DNA from: Pelagibacterium sediminicola
Lineage (GTDB): Bacteria; Pseudomonadota; Alphaproteobacteria; Rhizobiales; Devosiaceae
DNA length: 64,000 bases
NCBI RefSeq assembly: GCF_003390885.1
Contig: NZ_QMEL01000001.1
Coordinates: 310,001-374,000, forward strand
Reading direction: 5' to 3'
The notes under the pieces: model-generated
Seen by the model: the letters and a program-made list of their open reading frames with translations, nothing else
Told to the model about the DNA's origin: nothing
Databases searched by the model: none
Shown here: in pieces, positions 21,639-32,195 of the stretch
Numbering within the stretch: the first letter of the stretch is position 1
Layout of the letters: each line of letters begins with the position of its first letter
Position numbers and translations under genes: made by a program

Positions 21639-22469
21639 TCATTGCCCCATCGCCCCGAGCACGATTGCGCGCAAGCCGGGCGTCACCTCGGGAGTTGTGC
21701 CGAACCAGGCGGCAAAGCCGGGGACGGCCTGATAAAGCAGCATGCCCAGACCATCGACTGTCCGCAAGCCCCGCGCCTTTGCATCGGCCAGAAGCGGGGT
21801 GACGAGCGGGGTATAGACGATGTCGTTGACCACCGCGTGGCCGGGCAGCGCCCCAAGGTCGAGCCCCTCGAAGCGCGTACCGCCCATTCCCACCGCGCTG
21901 GTGTTGACCACCAGCCCCGCCGCCGGGGCGAAGCGGGCAAACTCATCGAGCGGGGCCGGGGTGATATTGCCCCCGAACTCGGCCGCAAGGCTTTCGGCCC
22001 GCGCCAGATTGCGGTTGAGCAGCACGATATCGGGAATTTTTCGCGCCTCGAGCGCGGCCAGTATGGCGCGCGAGGCGCCCCCTGCGCCAAGGACGATCGC
22101 CCGTTCAAGGTTTTCGTCCCATCCGGGGCCGGTCGCATCGAGGTTTGAAAGAAACCCCAGATAATCGGAATTGGAGCCCAGAATCCGGCCATTGCTGACG
22201 GTGAGCGTATTGACCGCGCCGATCTTTTCGGCCAGCGGGTCGACCGCGTCGCAGAGCGAGACCAGCGCTTCCTTGTGCGGGATGGTGGCGTTGCCGCCAA
22301 CGAACGCACCCTTGCGCAAGGCATCGATGAAAGCCCAGAGACCCTCGGGGGCGACATCGATGGGCTCGTAACTGCCATCGATACCGTGCCGCGTAAGCCA
22401 GGTGCCATGGATGAGAGGCGACCGGGAATGGGCGATCGGGTGGCCGATGACGAAGGCTTTGATGGTCAT
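21639..22469 (-). CDS. aroE: Shikimate dehydrogenase
   Basis: NADPH-dependent reduction of 3-dehydroshikimate in aromatic amino acid synthesis. The 276-residue product has HSRSPLIHG near residue 14, the catalytic Lys66 in NATIPHKE, NSDYLGF near 100, and the nucleotide-binding GAGGASRAI near 126. Its ATG overlaps the maf stop by 4 bases. Confidence 0.96.
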   Translation of the reverse strand: MTIKAFVIGHPIAHSRSPLIHGTWLTRHGIDGSYEPIDVAPEGLWAFIDALRKGAFVGGNATIPHKEALVSLCDAVDPLAEKIGAVNTLTVSNGRILGSNSDYLGFLSNLDATGPGWDENLERAIVLGAGGASRAILAALEARKIPDIVLLNRNLARAESLAAEFGGNITPAPLDEFARFAPAAGLVVNTSAVGMGGTRFEGLDLGALPGHAVVNDIVYTPLVTPLLADAKARGLRTVDGLGMLLYQAVPGFAAWFGTTPEVTPGLRAIVLGAMGQ

Positions 22470-23089
22470 TTTCCGGTTCCGGGGTCAAAGGATTTCGGCC
22501 CAAGCAATTCTGGACCGTGACGGCGCAGGCCGTCGAGCAGGGCAAGAAGCGGCAGGCCGAGCACGGTAAAGTAGTCACCCTTTACCGCAGAAAAGAGCCG
22601 CACCGAAGGCCCTTCGAGCCGGTAGCCGCCGACCGAGCCTAGAATAGCCTCCCCCTCGAGATCGAGAACATGCTCAAGCTCGGCGGCGGAAAAATCGCAC
22701 ATGGTCATTTCCGCGCTGTCGCGCGCCGCCCAGACGATATCACCACCCCTTGCGAGCGCCGCGGCGGCGTGCAGGTGATGGGTGCGCCCGGCCAGCTCCT
22801 GCAACTGGCGGCGGGCCGTTTCACGTGAATCGGGCTTGTGGAGGTCGAGCCCCTCGCAATCGAGCGTCTGGTCGGCGCCGATCACCAGAGCCTGCGGGCG
22901 CGTCCGGCTCACGGCCAGCGCCTTTTCGCGCGCCAGAGCCAGGGCGATATCGGCCTTGCCGGCGCCGTCCACCGCAAGATGGCTTTCAATCGCCCGTTCA
23001 TCGACCGGGGCGGTCTGGACGGAAAAGGCGATACCCACAGCATCGAGCAGGGTTTTACGCGTCGGGCTTTTGGAGGCAAGGATCAGCAT
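22466..23089 (-). CDS. maf: Maf-like nucleoside triphosphate pyrophosphatase
   Basis: House-cleaning pyrophosphatase acting on modified or pyrimidine NTPs. The 207-residue product begins MLILASKSPTRKTLL (the conserved S/R loop) and has VIGADQTLDCEG and VGGYRLEG. ATG at 23089 is chosen on homology; the upstream 14 codons extend into the origin region. It is the first gene leftward of the proposed origin and carries a parS-like site in its coding sequence. Confidence 0.95.
   Translation of the reverse strand: MLILASKSPTRKTLLDAVGIAFSVQTAPVDERAIESHLAVDGAGKADIALALAREKALAVSRTRPQALVIGADQTLDCEGLDLHKPDSRETARRQLQELAGRTHHLHAAAALARGGDIVWAARDSAEMTMCDFSAAELEHVLDLEGEAILGSVGGYRLEGPSVRLFSAVKGDYFTVLGLPLLALLDGLRRHGPELLGPKSFDPGTGK
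22818..22831. promoter_or_regulatory. parS-like site in maf
   Basis: GTTTCACGTGAATC, one mismatch from GTTTCACGTGAAAC. Its reverse complement is identical to the three sites at 27835-27924, so it is likely a real ParB site left of the origin. Confidence 0.65.
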
Positions 23090-23121
23090 GGCTGGGCAAT
23101 CCGGATGGTTCGGAGTCCGCT

Positions 23122-23130
23122 TTTTCCACA
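23122..23130 (+). promoter_or_regulatory. DnaA box (TTTTCCACA)
   Basis: One mismatch from TTATCCACA, 33 bases from the maf start. Confidence 0.6.
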
Positions 23131-23171
23131 CCGTTGTCCAAAGGGAAAGCGGTTCGGGCCGGGCCGGGCGG

Positions 23172-23180
23172 CGTGGATAA
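23172..23180 (-). promoter_or_regulatory. DnaA box (TTATCCACG on minus strand)
   Basis: CGTGGATAA on the plus strand; one mismatch from consensus, at the last position. The best DnaA box in the gap. Confidence 0.65.
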
Positions 23181-23206
23181 GATTATGCCCGCTGGGCGGG
23201 AATTGG

Positions 23207-23222
23207 TTAACAGGTGGTTAAG
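23207..23222 (+). promoter_or_regulatory. CtrA box 1 (TTAA-N7-TTAAG)
   Basis: Both TTAA half-sites with 7-base spacing; the last base is G instead of C. It overlaps a weak DnaA-like 9-mer (GGTGGTTAA, 23213-23221), as CtrA and DnaA sites do in the Caulobacter origin. Confidence 0.6.
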
Positions 23223-23242
23223 CTGTGGACGGTTTGAAGGGA

Positions 23243-23251
23243 TGTGGAAAA
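23243..23251 (-). promoter_or_regulatory. DnaA box (TTTTCCACA on minus strand)
   Basis: TGTGGAAAA on the plus strand; one mismatch. A related TGTGGAC core lies just upstream at 23224-23230. Confidence 0.6.
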
Positions 23252-23291
23252 GAACGGGGATATTTGTCCCGGAAGCAGGGGGCGGTTATGG

Positions 23292-23307
23292 TTAACGTTC
23301 GGTTAAC
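23292..23307 (+). promoter_or_regulatory. CtrA box 2 (perfect TTAA-N7-TTAAC)
   Basis: TTAACGTTCGGTTAAC is an exact match to the Caulobacter CtrA consensus. Its last base is the first base of a DnaA-like CTATGCACA. Confidence 0.72.
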
Positions 23308-23325
23308 TATGCACAGGGCTAGAGG

Positions 23326-23341
23326 TTAACAAAGCCTTAAC
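23326..23341 (+). promoter_or_regulatory. CtrA box 3 (perfect TTAA-N7-TTAAC)
   Basis: TTAACAAAGCCTTAAC is an exact consensus match, starting 34 bases after box 2 begins (roughly three helical turns). Confidence 0.72.
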
Positions 23342-23562
23342 GGGCGGCGCTATCCGGGATTTTTCCTTTTTTGCGGCGCTGGTTTTCCACGCAGGTCGAG
23401 AAGGGCATCATGCCGCAGCGCCGGGCTGGCCCGTCCGGTTGTGGGGCCGGCACAATTGGTGCAAAACACAGCCAAGAAGAATAAGCAGACTCTTTTGAGA
23501 GTCTTATTTAAGGGCCCAGCCTTTCTTTGTTCCGGCGCCAAGCGCGCCCCACGAGGATTTCA

Positions 23563-24600
23563 ATGACCGCACCAGCACCGACGGGAAAGCCGTTGCTCGA
23601 TACGGCGCGCGGCTTGCGCCAGCCAAAACCACCCATCTGGATCATGCGCCAGGCGGGACGCTACCTGCCCGAATACAGGGAAGTCCGCGAAAAGGCCGGC
23701 GGGTTCCTCAATCTCTGCTATGCACCTGAACTGGCAAGCGAGGTCACTCTCCAGCCCTTGCGGCGGTTCGATCTCGATGCCGCGATCATCTTTTCGGATA
23801 TTCTCGTCATCCCCGACGCCCTTGGCCAGAACGTGCGCTTTGAAAAGGGTGAAGGCCCGGTTCTCGATCCCATCACCCCGCAGACGCTGGGACGGCTCGA
23901 CCCCGATGCGGTCCTTGGCCATCTCGCCCCGGTCTTTGAAACGCTTGAACGAACGAAAACCGCACTGGCGCCGGAAAAGACCCTTATCGGGTTCTGCGGC
24001 GCGCCATGGACCGTTGCCACCTATATGATCGGGGGACGGGGTTCGCCCGATCAGGCCGCCGCCCGGCTTTTCGCGCTCAACCACCCGGAGGCCTTTGCGC
24101 GGCTCATCGATCTTCTCGTCGAGGTTTCCGCCACCTATCTTATCGCCCAGCTTTCAGCCGGTGCCGATATGGTGCAGATCTTCGAGAGCTGGGCACTCAA
24201 TCTCGATGAAAACGCCTTTGAATCTTATGTGATTGCGCCCAACAAGGCGTTGGTGGAGAAGGTGCGCGCCGCGGTTCCCGATGCGGTGATCACCGGGTTT
24301 CCGCGCGGCGCGGCAGGGATGATCGGCCGGTTTGCACGGGAAACCGGGGTCAATGTCATCGGGCTCGATTATGCGACGCCGCTTGCCTTCGCCAACGAGA
24401 ACCTCGACTCCAAAATCCCCGTCCAGGGCAATCTCGACCCCTTGCGGCTGGTGGCCGGCGGGGCGCAGATGGAAAGCCGGGCGCGGGAAATCGTTGACGG
24501 CTTTGCCCATCGCCCCCATATTTTCAACCTCGGGCACGGCATCGTGCCCCAGACCCCGATCGAAAACGTCTCCCGCCTCATCGATATCGTCAAAGCATGA
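23563..24600 (+). CDS. hemE: Uroporphyrinogen decarboxylase
   Basis: Converts uroporphyrinogen III to coproporphyrinogen III in heme synthesis. The 345-residue product has the N-terminal signature PPIWIMRQAGRYLPEYR near residue 24, FSDILVIPDALG, GFCGAPWTVATYM and the C-terminal NLGHGI. ATG at 23563 lies 10 bases after GAGG; the short in-frame extension to 23527 lacks support. It is the first gene to the right of the proposed origin, and its stop overlaps hemJ as ATGA. Confidence 0.97.
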   Translation: MTAPAPTGKPLLDTARGLRQPKPPIWIMRQAGRYLPEYREVREKAGGFLNLCYAPELASEVTLQPLRRFDLDAAIIFSDILVIPDALGQNVRFEKGEGPVLDPITPQTLGRLDPDAVLGHLAPVFETLERTKTALAPEKTLIGFCGAPWTVATYMIGGRGSPDQAAARLFALNHPEAFARLIDLLVEVSATYLIAQLSAGADMVQIFESWALNLDENAFESYVIAPNKALVEKVRAAVPDAVITGFPRGAAGMIGRFARETGVNVIGLDYATPLAFANENLDSKIPVQGNLDPLRLVAGGAQMESRAREIVDGFAHRPHIFNLGHGIVPQTPIENVSRLIDIVKA

Positions 24601-26516: not shown

Positions 26517-27836
26517 ATGCCCCAGGCCAATAGAACGATTGTTGCGCTTTCCTCGGGCAGCTTGCCCTCGGGCGTGGCGGTCATCCGGCTGTCGGGGCCT
26601 CGGAGCCTCGATGCGGTCAGGGCGCTGTGCGGAAAACTGCCCGCGCCGCGCCATATGGCGCTGTTACCGCTCAGGGATCCAGGTTCGGGGCTGCTGCTCG
26701 ACAAGGGGATCGTTGCGGTCTTTCCCGCGCCCCGTTCCTTTACCGGGGAAGATTGCGCCGAACTCCAGGTCCATGGCTCGCCCGCCGGGGTCAAGGCCAT
26801 CCTCGATGCGCTCAGCTCGATACCGGGAATCGGGCTGGCCGGGGCTGGAGATTTCACCCGGCGCGCCTTTGAAAACGGCAAGCTCGATCTCACCGCCATC
26901 GAGGGGCTCGGCGATCTTCTGGCCGCCGAGACCGAACACCAGCGCCGTCAGGCCCTGGCCCGGCTGGAGGGCGGGCTCGCCGGGCAGATTCTCGTCTGGC
27001 GTGACGGCCTTTTGGCCGCGCGGGTCGAGATTGAGGCCCACCTCGATTTTTCCGACGAAGACGACGTCCCCTTTACCCTTCCCGATCACTTCGCGCCAGG
27101 GCTTTTGGCCCTCAAGGCCCAACTCGCCGAGGCTTTGGCGGGGTTTACGCGCGGCCGCATCGTGCGTGAGGGGTTCCGGATCGTCCTTGCCGGCCCGCCC
27201 AACGCGGGAAAATCGAGCCTTTTGAACGCGCTTGCCGGCTCGGACCTTGCCATTGTCACTGCCGAAGCGGGCACCACCCGCGACACCCGCGACGTCCTGA
27301 TCGATCTGGGTGGCAGGCTGGTCGTGTTGACCGACACGGCGGGTTTGCGCGACACCGACAGTCTTGCGGAGGCCGAGGGTATAAAGCGCGCCCGGCAGGC
27401 CATGGAGAACGCCGATCTCGTCCTCTGGCTCACGGCCCCCGACACGGCCCCGCCCGGTGGCACGCCCGTCCTGTCGGAAACCCCGCTCTGGACCATCGGC
27501 ACGAAATCCGATCTGGACATCACGACGGCCACAGCCGATCTTTCCTTGTCGGTCAGGACCGGAGAGGGCATGCCGGACTTGCTAAAACGGCTCGAACGCC
27601 ATATTGACAGCCATCTGGGGACCGGCGAAGCGAGCCTTGTCAGCCATTTAAGGGATCGTGACGCGATTGCTGCTGCCGTGCTTGCCATCGAAAGCGCCAT
27701 TACCCATATCGAGCAACCCGAACTGTGTGCCGAGGATCTGCGGGCCGCATCCGATAGTCTGGCCGGTCTGGTCGGGCTGATCGACAGCGAAATGGTGCTC
27801 GACAGGCTGTTCGCCGGTTTCTGCATCGGGAAATGA
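26517..27836 (+). CDS. mnmE: tRNA modification GTPase MnmE
   Basis: With MnmG, installs the 5-(carboxymethyl)aminomethyl group on wobble U34 of several tRNAs. The 439-residue product has an N-terminal folate-binding domain, a G domain at about 220-370 (GPPNAGKSS, TTRDT, DTAG, TKSD), and ends in FCIGK with the catalytic Cys436. The stop codon is overlapped by a parS-like site. mnmG follows after 104 bases. Confidence 0.97.
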   Translation: MPQANRTIVALSSGSLPSGVAVIRLSGPRSLDAVRALCGKLPAPRHMALLPLRDPGSGLLLDKGIVAVFPAPRSFTGEDCAELQVHGSPAGVKAILDALSSIPGIGLAGAGDFTRRAFENGKLDLTAIEGLGDLLAAETEHQRRQALARLEGGLAGQILVWRDGLLAARVEIEAHLDFSDEDDVPFTLPDHFAPGLLALKAQLAEALAGFTRGRIVREGFRIVLAGPPNAGKSSLLNALAGSDLAIVTAEAGTTRDTRDVLIDLGGRLVVLTDTAGLRDTDSLAEAEGIKRARQAMENADLVLWLTAPDTAPPGGTPVLSETPLWTIGTKSDLDITTATADLSLSVRTGEGMPDLLKRLERHIDSHLGTGEASLVSHLRDRDAIAAAVLAIESAITHIEQPELCAEDLRAASDSLAGLVGLIDSEMVLDRLFAGFCIGK

Positions 27837-27848
27837 TTCACGTGAAAC
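27835..27848. promoter_or_regulatory. parS: parS site 1 (mnmE stop)
   Basis: GATTCACGTGAAAC, one mismatch from the near-universal parS core GTTTCACGTGAAAC. It begins on the second base of the mnmE TGA. Confidence 0.82.
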
Positions 27849-27873
27849 GCCCTGGCGCCGATGCTGCAAGAAG

Positions 27874-27887
27874 GATTCACGTGAAAC
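27874..27887. promoter_or_regulatory. parS: parS site 2 (mnmE-mnmG gap)
   Basis: GATTCACGTGAAAC, identical to site 1 and 39 bp from it. Confidence 0.85.
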
Positions 27888-27910
27888 AGGGCAGAAGATG
27901 AACACAACGC

Positions 27911-27924
27911 GATTCACGTGAAAC
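27911..27924. promoter_or_regulatory. parS: parS site 3 (mnmE-mnmG gap)
   Basis: GATTCACGTGAAAC, identical to sites 1 and 2, 37 bp after site 2 and 16 bp before the mnmG start. Confidence 0.85.
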
Positions 27925-27940
27925 AACAAGCTTGGGTGCC

Positions 27941-29809: not shown

Positions 29810-30474
29810 CCGGTTCTTCTGCCCGCCGCACGACGCTTGAACCCTACGAGCCGTTTTTCGGTCGTTTGCCTGAGGCCGTGCTTGCCGATCTGGAAGCGTT
29901 TGGTGAAAGCGTCGAGAAATGGCAGGGGATGCAGAATCTGGTTTCACGTGAAACAGTCTCTGTTCTCTGGGAACGCCATATTCTTGATTCGCTGCAACTT
30001 CTTCCACTGATGGATGCGCATTTGCGCGCCCATGCGCCGGCCAATCTGCTTGATATCGGCTCGGGAGGCGGATTTCCGGCCCTGCCGCTGGCAATTGCGC
30101 TCAAGGATCGGCCCGTTCACCTTCATTTGATCGAATCGCGGGCCCGTAAATGCGCGTTCTTGCGGGCCGTTATCCGGGATTTCGACCTTCCGGCCACTGT
30201 CCACACCGTGCGGATCGAAGAGGCCGAAAAGCCCAAAATCGGCCCGGTTCATGCGGTTACCGCCCGCGCGCTGGCCGGTCTGCCAGTGTTGTTTGGCTAT
30301 ATTGCGCCGTTCTGGCAGGAGGGAACCCGGGGGTTTCTCCATAAGGGACGGGAATATGGTGAAGAACTGCGGCAAGCGGATTCAGTCTGGCGCAGCGATG
30401 TGGTAAAGCATCCCGGTAAGGTCGATCCTCAGGGCGTCATTCTCGAAATTTCTGCCCTTGAACGGATCACGTGA
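29806..30474 (+). CDS. rsmG: 16S rRNA (guanine527-N7)-methyltransferase RsmG
   Basis: SAM-dependent methyltransferase for G527 of 16S rRNA. The 222-residue product has [12 protein letters not shown] near 44, RHILDSLQL, the SAM loop [15 protein letters not shown] at about 83-97 and TARALAGL. A perfect parS palindrome lies inside the gene and encodes part of VSRET. It sits in the classic mnmE-mnmG-rsmG-parA-parB order. Confidence 0.96.
29941..29954. promoter_or_regulatory. parS: parS site 4 (perfect, inside rsmG)
   Basis: GTTTCACGTGAAAC, the exact 14-bp consensus palindrome, within codons for VSRET of RsmG. Confidence 0.9.
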
Positions 30475-30510
30475 TCGGAAATGAGCCCTTTTTGGGGGTT
30501 CGGAGGCCAC

Positions 30511-31311
<801 letters not shown>

Positions 31312-31322
31312 TGGAGAATCCC

Positions 31323-32195
31323 ATGAACGATAAACCCTCCCGTCTCGGTCGCGGCCTTGCTGCGCTTATCGGCGATATGGGGCCGGTCGATGCGCCCCGG
31401 CTGGGGGAGGCCGGCGTGCGGCGCCTGCCCGTCGAATTCATCATCGCCAGCCGCGCCAATCCGCGCAAGGATTTCGATCCCGAGCTTCTGGAAGACCTCA
31501 CCAATTCGATCCGCGAAAAGGGCGTGATGCAGCCGCTTCTGGTGCGCCCAAGCGATACGGGTCCCGATGTTTTCGAGATCATTGCCGGCGAGCGCCGTTG
31601 GCGGGCCGCCCAACGGGCGGGGTTGCACGAGGTTCCCGTCATCGTCCGCGAGGTCGATGACAAGGAAGCGCTCGAGCTTGCCATTATCGAGAACGTGCAG
31701 CGCGCCGACCTCAATCCGCTCGAAGAGGCGCAAGGCTATGGCCAGCTCATCGAGCAGTTCGCCTATACCCAGAACGATCTGGCCCAGGTCATCGGCAAAT
31801 CGCGCTCTCACGTCGCCAATACGCTGCGGCTGTTGAAACTGCCGGGGGAGGTGCAGTCCATGCTCGAACGCGGCGAGCTGACCGCCGGGCACGCAAGAAC
31901 GCTCATCACCTCCGACGACCCGCTTGGTCTGGCGCAGCGCATTGTTTCTGCTGGACTTTCCGTGCGCGAGGCCGAGGCGTTACACCAGAAGGACAGCGAC
32001 GCCAGAAAGGCTGTGGCTTCGGCTCCGCGCGGCGCGGCGCCCAAGGACGCCGATACGCTGGCGCTCGAAAAGCAGCTTTCCGACGCGCTGGGGCTTTCGG
32101 TGAGCCTCGACCACAAGGACAAGGGCGGCAAGCTCGAGATCCGCTACAAGACGCTCGACCAGCTCGATCACGTTTGTTCGCGGCTGATCGGGTAG
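31323..32195 (+). CDS. parB: Chromosome partitioning protein ParB (Spo0J)
   Basis: CTP-dependent clamp that loads at parS and spreads. The 290-residue product starts with the basic SRLGRGLAALIGD, which stimulates ParA, then has the CTP-binding GERRWRAAQRAG motif near 89, an HTH around 140-180 (TQNDLAQVIGKSRSHVANTL) and a C-terminal dimer domain. ATG codons at 31308 and 31311 overlap the parA stop; I prefer 31323, which has GGAG 6 bases upstream, but cannot exclude them. Confidence 0.96.
   Translation: MNDKPSRLGRGLAALIGDMGPVDAPRLGEAGVRRLPVEFIIASRANPRKDFDPELLEDLTNSIREKGVMQPLLVRPSDTGPDVFEIIAGERRWRAAQRAGLHEVPVIVREVDDKEALELAIIENVQRADLNPLEEAQGYGQLIEQFAYTQNDLAQVIGKSRSHVANTLRLLKLPGEVQSMLERGELTAGHARTLITSDDPLGLAQRIVSAGLSVREAEALHQKDSDARKAVASAPRGAAPKDADTLALEKQLSDALGLSVSLDHKDKGGKLEIRYKTLDQLDHVCSRLIG

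Follow-up and report, generated by a model that had tools for sequence, protein, structure and literature searches.

CtrA-type boxes in a predicted replication origin between maf and hemE of Pelagibacterium sediminicola and its relatives in the Devosiaceae

The maf/hemE intergenic region

The window, by which we mean the whole 64-kb stretch of DNA analyzed, covers positions 310001-374000 of contig C25 (660,887 bases) in the 3.24-Mb draft genome (3,240,150 bases) of Pelagibacterium sediminicola, a member of the Devosiaceae in the order Hyphomicrobiales. An earlier note on this DNA described a 473-bp gap between divergent maf and hemE, and the protein family matches agree with these assignments: PF02545 is found on the minus strand and PF01208 on the plus strand. 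The genes following hemE are, in order, a UPF0093 gene, rho, mnmE, gidA, gidB, a parA-type gene, and parB. The AT content of the gap is 43.6% compared with a window mean of 36.0%, and 0.7% of same-size stretches of the window are equally AT-rich. The features of the region are given below in window coordinates; conservation within the genus refers to an alignment of 13 sequences, 12 of them distinct.

22466..23089, minus strand: maf (PF02545)
23090..23562, no strand: predicted chromosomal origin (oriC), the maf/hemE gap; DnaA-box cluster, parS and parAB nearby, architecture kept in relatives
23122..23130, plus strand: DnaA box TTTTCCACA, one mismatch from TTATCCACA; TTTTYCACA in 12 of 13 genus sequences
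23172..23180, minus strand: DnaA box TTATCCACG, one mismatch from TTATCCACA; unconserved in the genus, with none of its 9 columns invariant
23207..23221, no strand: CtrA box 1 (predicted), TTAA-N7-TTAA, TTAACAGGTGGTTAA; exact half-sites
23243..23251, minus strand: DnaA box TTTTCCACA, one mismatch from TTATCCACA; DnaA-like TGKGGANAA in 8 of 13 genus sequences
23292..23306, no strand: CtrA box 2 (predicted), TTAA-N7-TTAA, TTAACGTTCGGTTAA; exact half-sites
23307..23315, plus strand: DnaA-like box CTATGCACA, one mismatch from TTATNCACA; abuts CtrA box 2; CAC in 12 of 13 genus sequences
23326..23340, no strand: CtrA box 3 (predicted), TTAA-N7-TTAA, TTAACAAAGCCTTAA; exact half-sites
23460..23471, plus strand: TGCAAAACACAG element, invariant in the genus; candidate roles are hemE promoter or unwinding edge
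23488..23503, no strand: GANTC pair (CcrM-type), GACTC and GAGTC, in an inverted repeat AGACTCT/AGAGTCT read from the sequence
23563..24600, plus strand: hemE, uroporphyrinogen decarboxylase (PF01208)
27834..27925, no strand: three parS-like sites (27834, 27873, 27910), two mismatches each
29940..29955, no strand: parS-like site, one mismatch
30481..31311, plus strand: parA, ParA-type partition ATPase (PF13614, PF01656)
31236..32195, plus strand: parB, with the start of the longest ORF (PF02195, PF17762, PF23552)

At least three one-mismatch DnaA boxes had been claimed for the gap, and this count holds: three are identified using TTATCCACA and a fourth, at 23307, using TTATNCACA. The 64-kb window contains five one-mismatch TTATCCACA sites, a number within chance (mean 3.65; 32 of 100 shuffles reach five). 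It is the clustering that is unusual, with three of the five falling in the gap. In a scan of the contig, which covered 660,887 of the 3,240,150 genome bases, no other stretch of 473 bp is as rich as the gap, either by TTATCCACA (three sites, compared with two in the next) or by TTATNCACA (four, compared with two). There are no perfect TTATNCACA boxes on this contig, and the surroundings of dnaA (250–257 kb) contain one TTATNCACA-like site and none by TTATCCACA.

The gap also contains three TTAA-N7-TTAA elements within 134 bp. The earlier note had recognized all three and described two as exact, but the half-sites are exact in every one. There are four exact matches in the window compared with 0.04 expected, and none of 100 shuffles reaches four. 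Across the 3.24-Mb genome the excess is modest, with 25 places where the reversed control pattern has 15; the only triple among the 25 is that of the maf/hemE gap. The boxes lie 223–356 bp upstream of hemE, interspersed with the DnaA boxes. An exact match is also found between the divergent genes fliX and flgI (L285, G000:C39:75000-77700), an intergenic region of the kind that is a classical CtrA target.

Two further elements lie closer to hemE. The TGCAAAACACAG element is unchanged in all 13 genus sequences and, with up to one mismatch allowed, is shared by 27 of the 40 distinct loci from Devosiaceae, compared with 1 of 82 loci from other Hyphomicrobiales. GANTC pairs occur within 200 bp upstream of hemE in 9 of 12 distinct genus loci (30–75 bp upstream; 0.69 expected), in 8 of 28 other Devosiaceae (1.54 expected), and in 39 of 82 other Hyphomicrobiales (3.83 expected), where the expectations come from mononucleotide shuffles and the middle base of GANTC varies freely. 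This pattern points to regulation by CcrM on the hemE side of the origin, which may be spread more widely than the CtrA boxes.

Placement of the origin

We identified eight parS-like sites in the genome (at most two mismatches), compared with one for the reversed control pattern. All eight are located at C25:294,800-342,350, around the gap (C25:333,090-333,562) and no more than 39 kb from it. The parAB genes, at 30.5–32.2 kb of the window, are likewise within 39 kb; in the excerpted text of a published survey, parAB is suggested as a reference point when origins are curated (PMC8116508). In eight complete relatives, dnaA and hemE are separated by 85–194 kb, compared with 80 kb in P. sediminicola. 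Among the sites listed, which for G001 are a subset, parS-like sites bracket hemE and leave dnaA outside in six of the eight, and in G013 all four parS-like sites are on one side of hemE, 4–12 kb away. A dif-like site lies 11–153 kb from the antipode of hemE in all eight relatives, dividing the chromosome into arms of 46.7–53.3%. It is nearer the antipode of hemE in five of the eight and nearer that of dnaA in three, which does not decide between the two genes.

The parS sites, parAB, and dif together place the origin in this region, and the DnaA-box cluster and the conservation of the gap single it out. The maf/hemE gap is thus very probably the site where copying of the chromosome starts, and the proposal of the earlier note that it is the replication origin is supported by the box cluster, the nearby parAB and parS, and, in the complete relatives, a dif site roughly opposite hemE.

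No clean GC-skew minimum is found on the P. sediminicola contig at either hemE or dnaA, and KOPS polarity on this contig is too weak near the origin to place the switch. Skew was sampled in twenty 20-kb segments per genome from four complete genomes of the same genus and one other member of the Devosiaceae (G001, G007, G008, G009, and G029; loci L141-L160 and L172-L251). For the four genomes of the genus, the arm downstream of hemE has a mean GC skew of +0.045 to +0.058, and the other arm, where negative values are expected, has +0.000, +0.038, +0.006, and +0.033. In either arm, however, the KOPS-like octamer GGGCAGGG points predominantly toward dif (103/5 and 19/109, the four genomes pooled). 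The other Devosiaceae genome behaves similarly, with arm skews of +0.023 and +0.021 and GGGNAGGG counts of 57/13 and 31/54. Because the upstream arm has near-zero or inverted skew while GGGCAGGG remains polar, we rejected GC skew, a check suggested in the earlier note, as a test of the origin. The KOPS and dif observations indicate that replication is bidirectional and that GC skew is decoupled from replichore polarity. GC skew is also described as insufficient for origin placement in several Alphaproteobacteria, in the part of the literature cited here (PMC1914354).

When read in the orientation of hemE, the skew is positive around the chromosome in 17 of 20 samples from G007 (one is approximately zero) and in 18 of 20 from G009. 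Unidirectional replication, considered on the basis of this nearly one-signed skew, was dropped given that GGGCAGGG keeps its polarity toward dif on either arm. The G009 genome also contains, in addition to dnaA, 18 matches to PF00308, many of which have the same score. These look like copies of IstB-like insertion-sequence helper ATPases, and they are a possible source of rearrangement.

Cell-cycle regulators

A search of the full genome for ctrA, a check suggested in the earlier note, found the gene at C46:72879-73559, which removes absence of the regulator as an objection to CtrA control. With the NCBIfam CtrA equivalog, whose cut-off is 350 bits, the protein reaches a score of 427 bits, and it is 83% identical to Caulobacter CtrA. 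Its receiver domain is a close match to the solved CtrA chain 4qpj. The genome additionally encodes a ChpT-type HPTransfase, GcrA-family proteins, and a CcrM-like N6 adenine methylase that is presumably of the CcrM type.

Conservation of the CtrA-type boxes

Regions upstream of hemE were oriented by tblastn, and 500 bp upstream of hemE were used where maf was not found. Of 57 matched genome rows, 30 became loci, 20 were added, and G015, G019, G025, G039, G044, and G053 were left out. The Devosiaceae are represented by 46 loci, 30 assigned by kinship and 16 by record title together with a hemE identity of at least 67%; 40 are distinct. One locus at a contig end (L255), six duplicate Devosiaceae loci, and one duplicate from another group were dropped before counting.

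An exact box is present in 37 of the 40 distinct Devosiaceae upstream regions (17 have one, 16 have two, and four have three), and the remaining three (L027, L034, L038) contain one-mismatch versions. There are 61 exact boxes in 18,077 bp of upstream sequence compared with 0.34 expected by shuffling, although these are not independent events because the species are related. The 188,581 bp of flanking DNA from the same loci contain no exact boxes. A control motif, AATT-N7-AATT, occurs twice in the upstream regions and not at all in the flanks. The boxes of the relatives are mostly 130–360 bp upstream of hemE, and the layout of sites is kept across the family.

Within the genus, CtrA box 3 is exact in all 13 sequences while its spacer varies, with 2.00 bits per half-site column compared with 1.18 in the spacer. 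CtrA box 2 is exact in 11 of 13 (1.90 bits compared with 0.81). Fixed half-sites and freer spacers at these two boxes are what would be expected of selection on CtrA contacts. At CtrA box 1 both halves are exact in only four of 13 sequences; the left half reads GTTAACA in 12 of 13, the right half is degenerate, and the contrast between half-site and spacer columns is small (1.52 compared with 1.34 bits). We also asked how many CtrA boxes have a DnaA-core motif no more than 14 bp away. Across the Devosiaceae 12 of 61 do, which does not differ from chance (p 0.52; random mean, 11.8), and in the genus 10 of 26 do, a weakly positive result among related sequences (p 0.016; random mean, 4.9).

The boxes are less frequent in other Hyphomicrobiales, whose groups were assigned from record titles: 15 of 82 distinct loci have an exact box within 600 bp before hemE, 14 of them a single one. 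An exact-match scan found none in 25 Rhizobiaceae-like loci, and the motif was identified in 1 of 12 Brucella/Phyllobacterium/Mesorhizobium-like loci, 1 of 10 from Aurantimonadaceae, both loci from Bartonella, all three from Cohaesibacter, and 2 of 12 from other named groups. In a sample of the order with one locus per family, 6 of 18 loci have an exact box (0.15 expected). As single sites exceed chance in several families, the trait may predate the Devosiaceae. A class-wide sample, with a hemE match in 50 of 57 genomes and 29 examined besides our own, yielded one locus with an exact box in 29; the exact-match scan is uncalibrated on the Caulobacter crescentus origin (Cori), and such counts may underestimate looser sites outside the Devosiaceae. 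One record titled Bacillus subtilis strain SK6B4 (L114, JAHREI010000001.1) contains a Hyphomicrobiales-like hemE locus, 53% identical to that of P. sediminicola, and is probably mislabelled or mixed.

A possible role in the control of initiation

Based on these observations, we think it likely that the gap is a DnaA-dependent oriC whose three CtrA boxes let CtrA~P exclude DnaA and so hold off initiation. Phosphorylated CtrA would bind the three boxes across the middle of the origin, the bound protein would exclude DnaA from the weak DnaA boxes, and initiation would have to wait until CtrA has lost its phosphate or been degraded. Such exclusion of DnaA from weak boxes has been proposed for Cori, according to the excerpted text of PMC4468827. 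In P. sediminicola we infer CtrA binding, repression, and cell-cycle timing at the gap, where CtrA would control initiation as in Caulobacter. The DnaA-like box at 23307 directly follows CtrA box 2. However, given that the DnaA-adjacency result is null across the family and weakly positive in the genus, steric exclusion is only plausible.

The gap might instead be an origin whose CtrA boxes act on the transcription of hemE or maf, or on that of a small RNA, without any part in gating initiation. The origin of Caulobacter overlaps hemE promoters, the conserved TGCAAAACACAG element and GANTC pair upstream of hemE look promoter-like, and a transcriptional function agrees with the null DnaA-adjacency test across the Devosiaceae. 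However, the boxes stand amid the DnaA boxes and well upstream of hemE, both here and, for the most part, in the relatives. Additionally, hemE is a housekeeping gene, and in 67 of 82 other Hyphomicrobiales loci the 600 bp preceding it contain no exact box. We therefore consider a purely transcriptional role unlikely.

Two other explanations concern the origin itself and the identity of the elements. An origin at or near dnaA, 80 kb away, would leave the hemE gap merely regulatory, and the three of eight complete genomes in which dif is nearer the antipode of dnaA would fit this arrangement. It is nevertheless very unlikely, considering that the surroundings of dnaA have one and zero DnaA-type sites (TTATNCACA and TTATCCACA, respectively) compared with four and three in the gap, that parS-like sites, among the matches listed, bracket hemE without dnaA in six of eight relatives, and that the layout of the hemE gap is kept across the Devosiaceae. 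The modest genome-wide excess of TTAA-N7-TTAA over the control pattern could mean that the elements arose by chance or mark some other factor. This is made extremely improbable by the presence of three elements within 134 bp, by the total of 61 in the 40 upstream regions from related bacteria where 0.34 are expected, and by the conserved half-sites and freer spacers of boxes 2 and 3.

Comparison with known origins

An origin gated by CtrA, as we favor for the gap, would have a close counterpart in Cori. The gap resembles Cori in its position beside hemE, its length of over 400 bp, its weak DnaA boxes, the presence of several CtrA-type sites with TTAA-N7-TTAA at their centre, and a parS within 8 kb, as far as Cori is described in the excerpts of PMC1914354 and PMC4468827. 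Cori has five footprinted CtrA sites, whereas the gap has three boxes. The gap contains no match within one mismatch to the G-box of Cori, TGATCCACA. An IHF site overlapping a CtrA site is a further feature of Cori-type origins, whereas no IHF consensus (WATCAN5WTR or WATCAAN4TTR) is found in the gap; a looser IHF site is possible.

The other flank also differs, being COG1806 in Cori and maf in P. sediminicola, where dnaA is 80 kb away and COG1806 (PF03618) has no match in the genome. COG1806 is an origin neighbour in Caulobacter and Rickettsia, and the neighbour differs in Wolbachia (PMC1914354). Because of the latter, we do not take this neighbour as defining a hemE-type oriC. In many other Hyphomicrobiales the maf/hemE gap is approximately 1.25 kb, a length that would fit a COG1806 gene still in between.

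The predicted origins of Rickettsia prowazekii and Wolbachia are likewise flanked by hemE and contain DnaA and CtrA-type sites, as reported in the same excerpt (PMC1914354). However, these bacteria belong to another order, the neighbouring genes are different, and the genomes are AT-rich, so that TTAA arises more easily. Hyphomonas neptunium, too, is from an order other than Hyphomicrobiales. There, a CtrA ChIP-seq signal is found at a site next to the origin, according to a partial text of PMC7200025. From the sources cited, gating of the origin by CtrA is thus already known for Caulobacter; there are indications of it in Hyphomonas, and it has been predicted for Rickettsia and Wolbachia.

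Within Hyphomicrobiales the models differ from the gap. The origin of Sinorhizobium meliloti is described, in an excerpt of PMC4433202, as having no CtrA motif or binding, and CtrA does not bind the origin of Brucella abortus, in a statement cited in PMC2877005. Given these two origins without CtrA, the Devosiaceae would be an example spanning a whole family, in an order that was not expected to have one. Our search of the literature on CtrA in Pelagibacterium or Devosia, the latter judged by title, found nothing on the origin. We give roughly equal weight to either outcome for the proposal that CtrA gating either originated in the Devosiaceae in particular or was retained and developed further there, the models of the order having CtrA but no sites for it at the origin. 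If true, CtrA would have been recruited to the origin once more, and perhaps independently, in addition to its recruitment in the freshwater and marine Caulobacters and Rickettsia. The array conserved across the Devosiaceae allows origins that have sites for this regulator to be compared with origins that lack them in the same order, and makes it directly testable how CtrA comes to be recruited to replication origins, and why.
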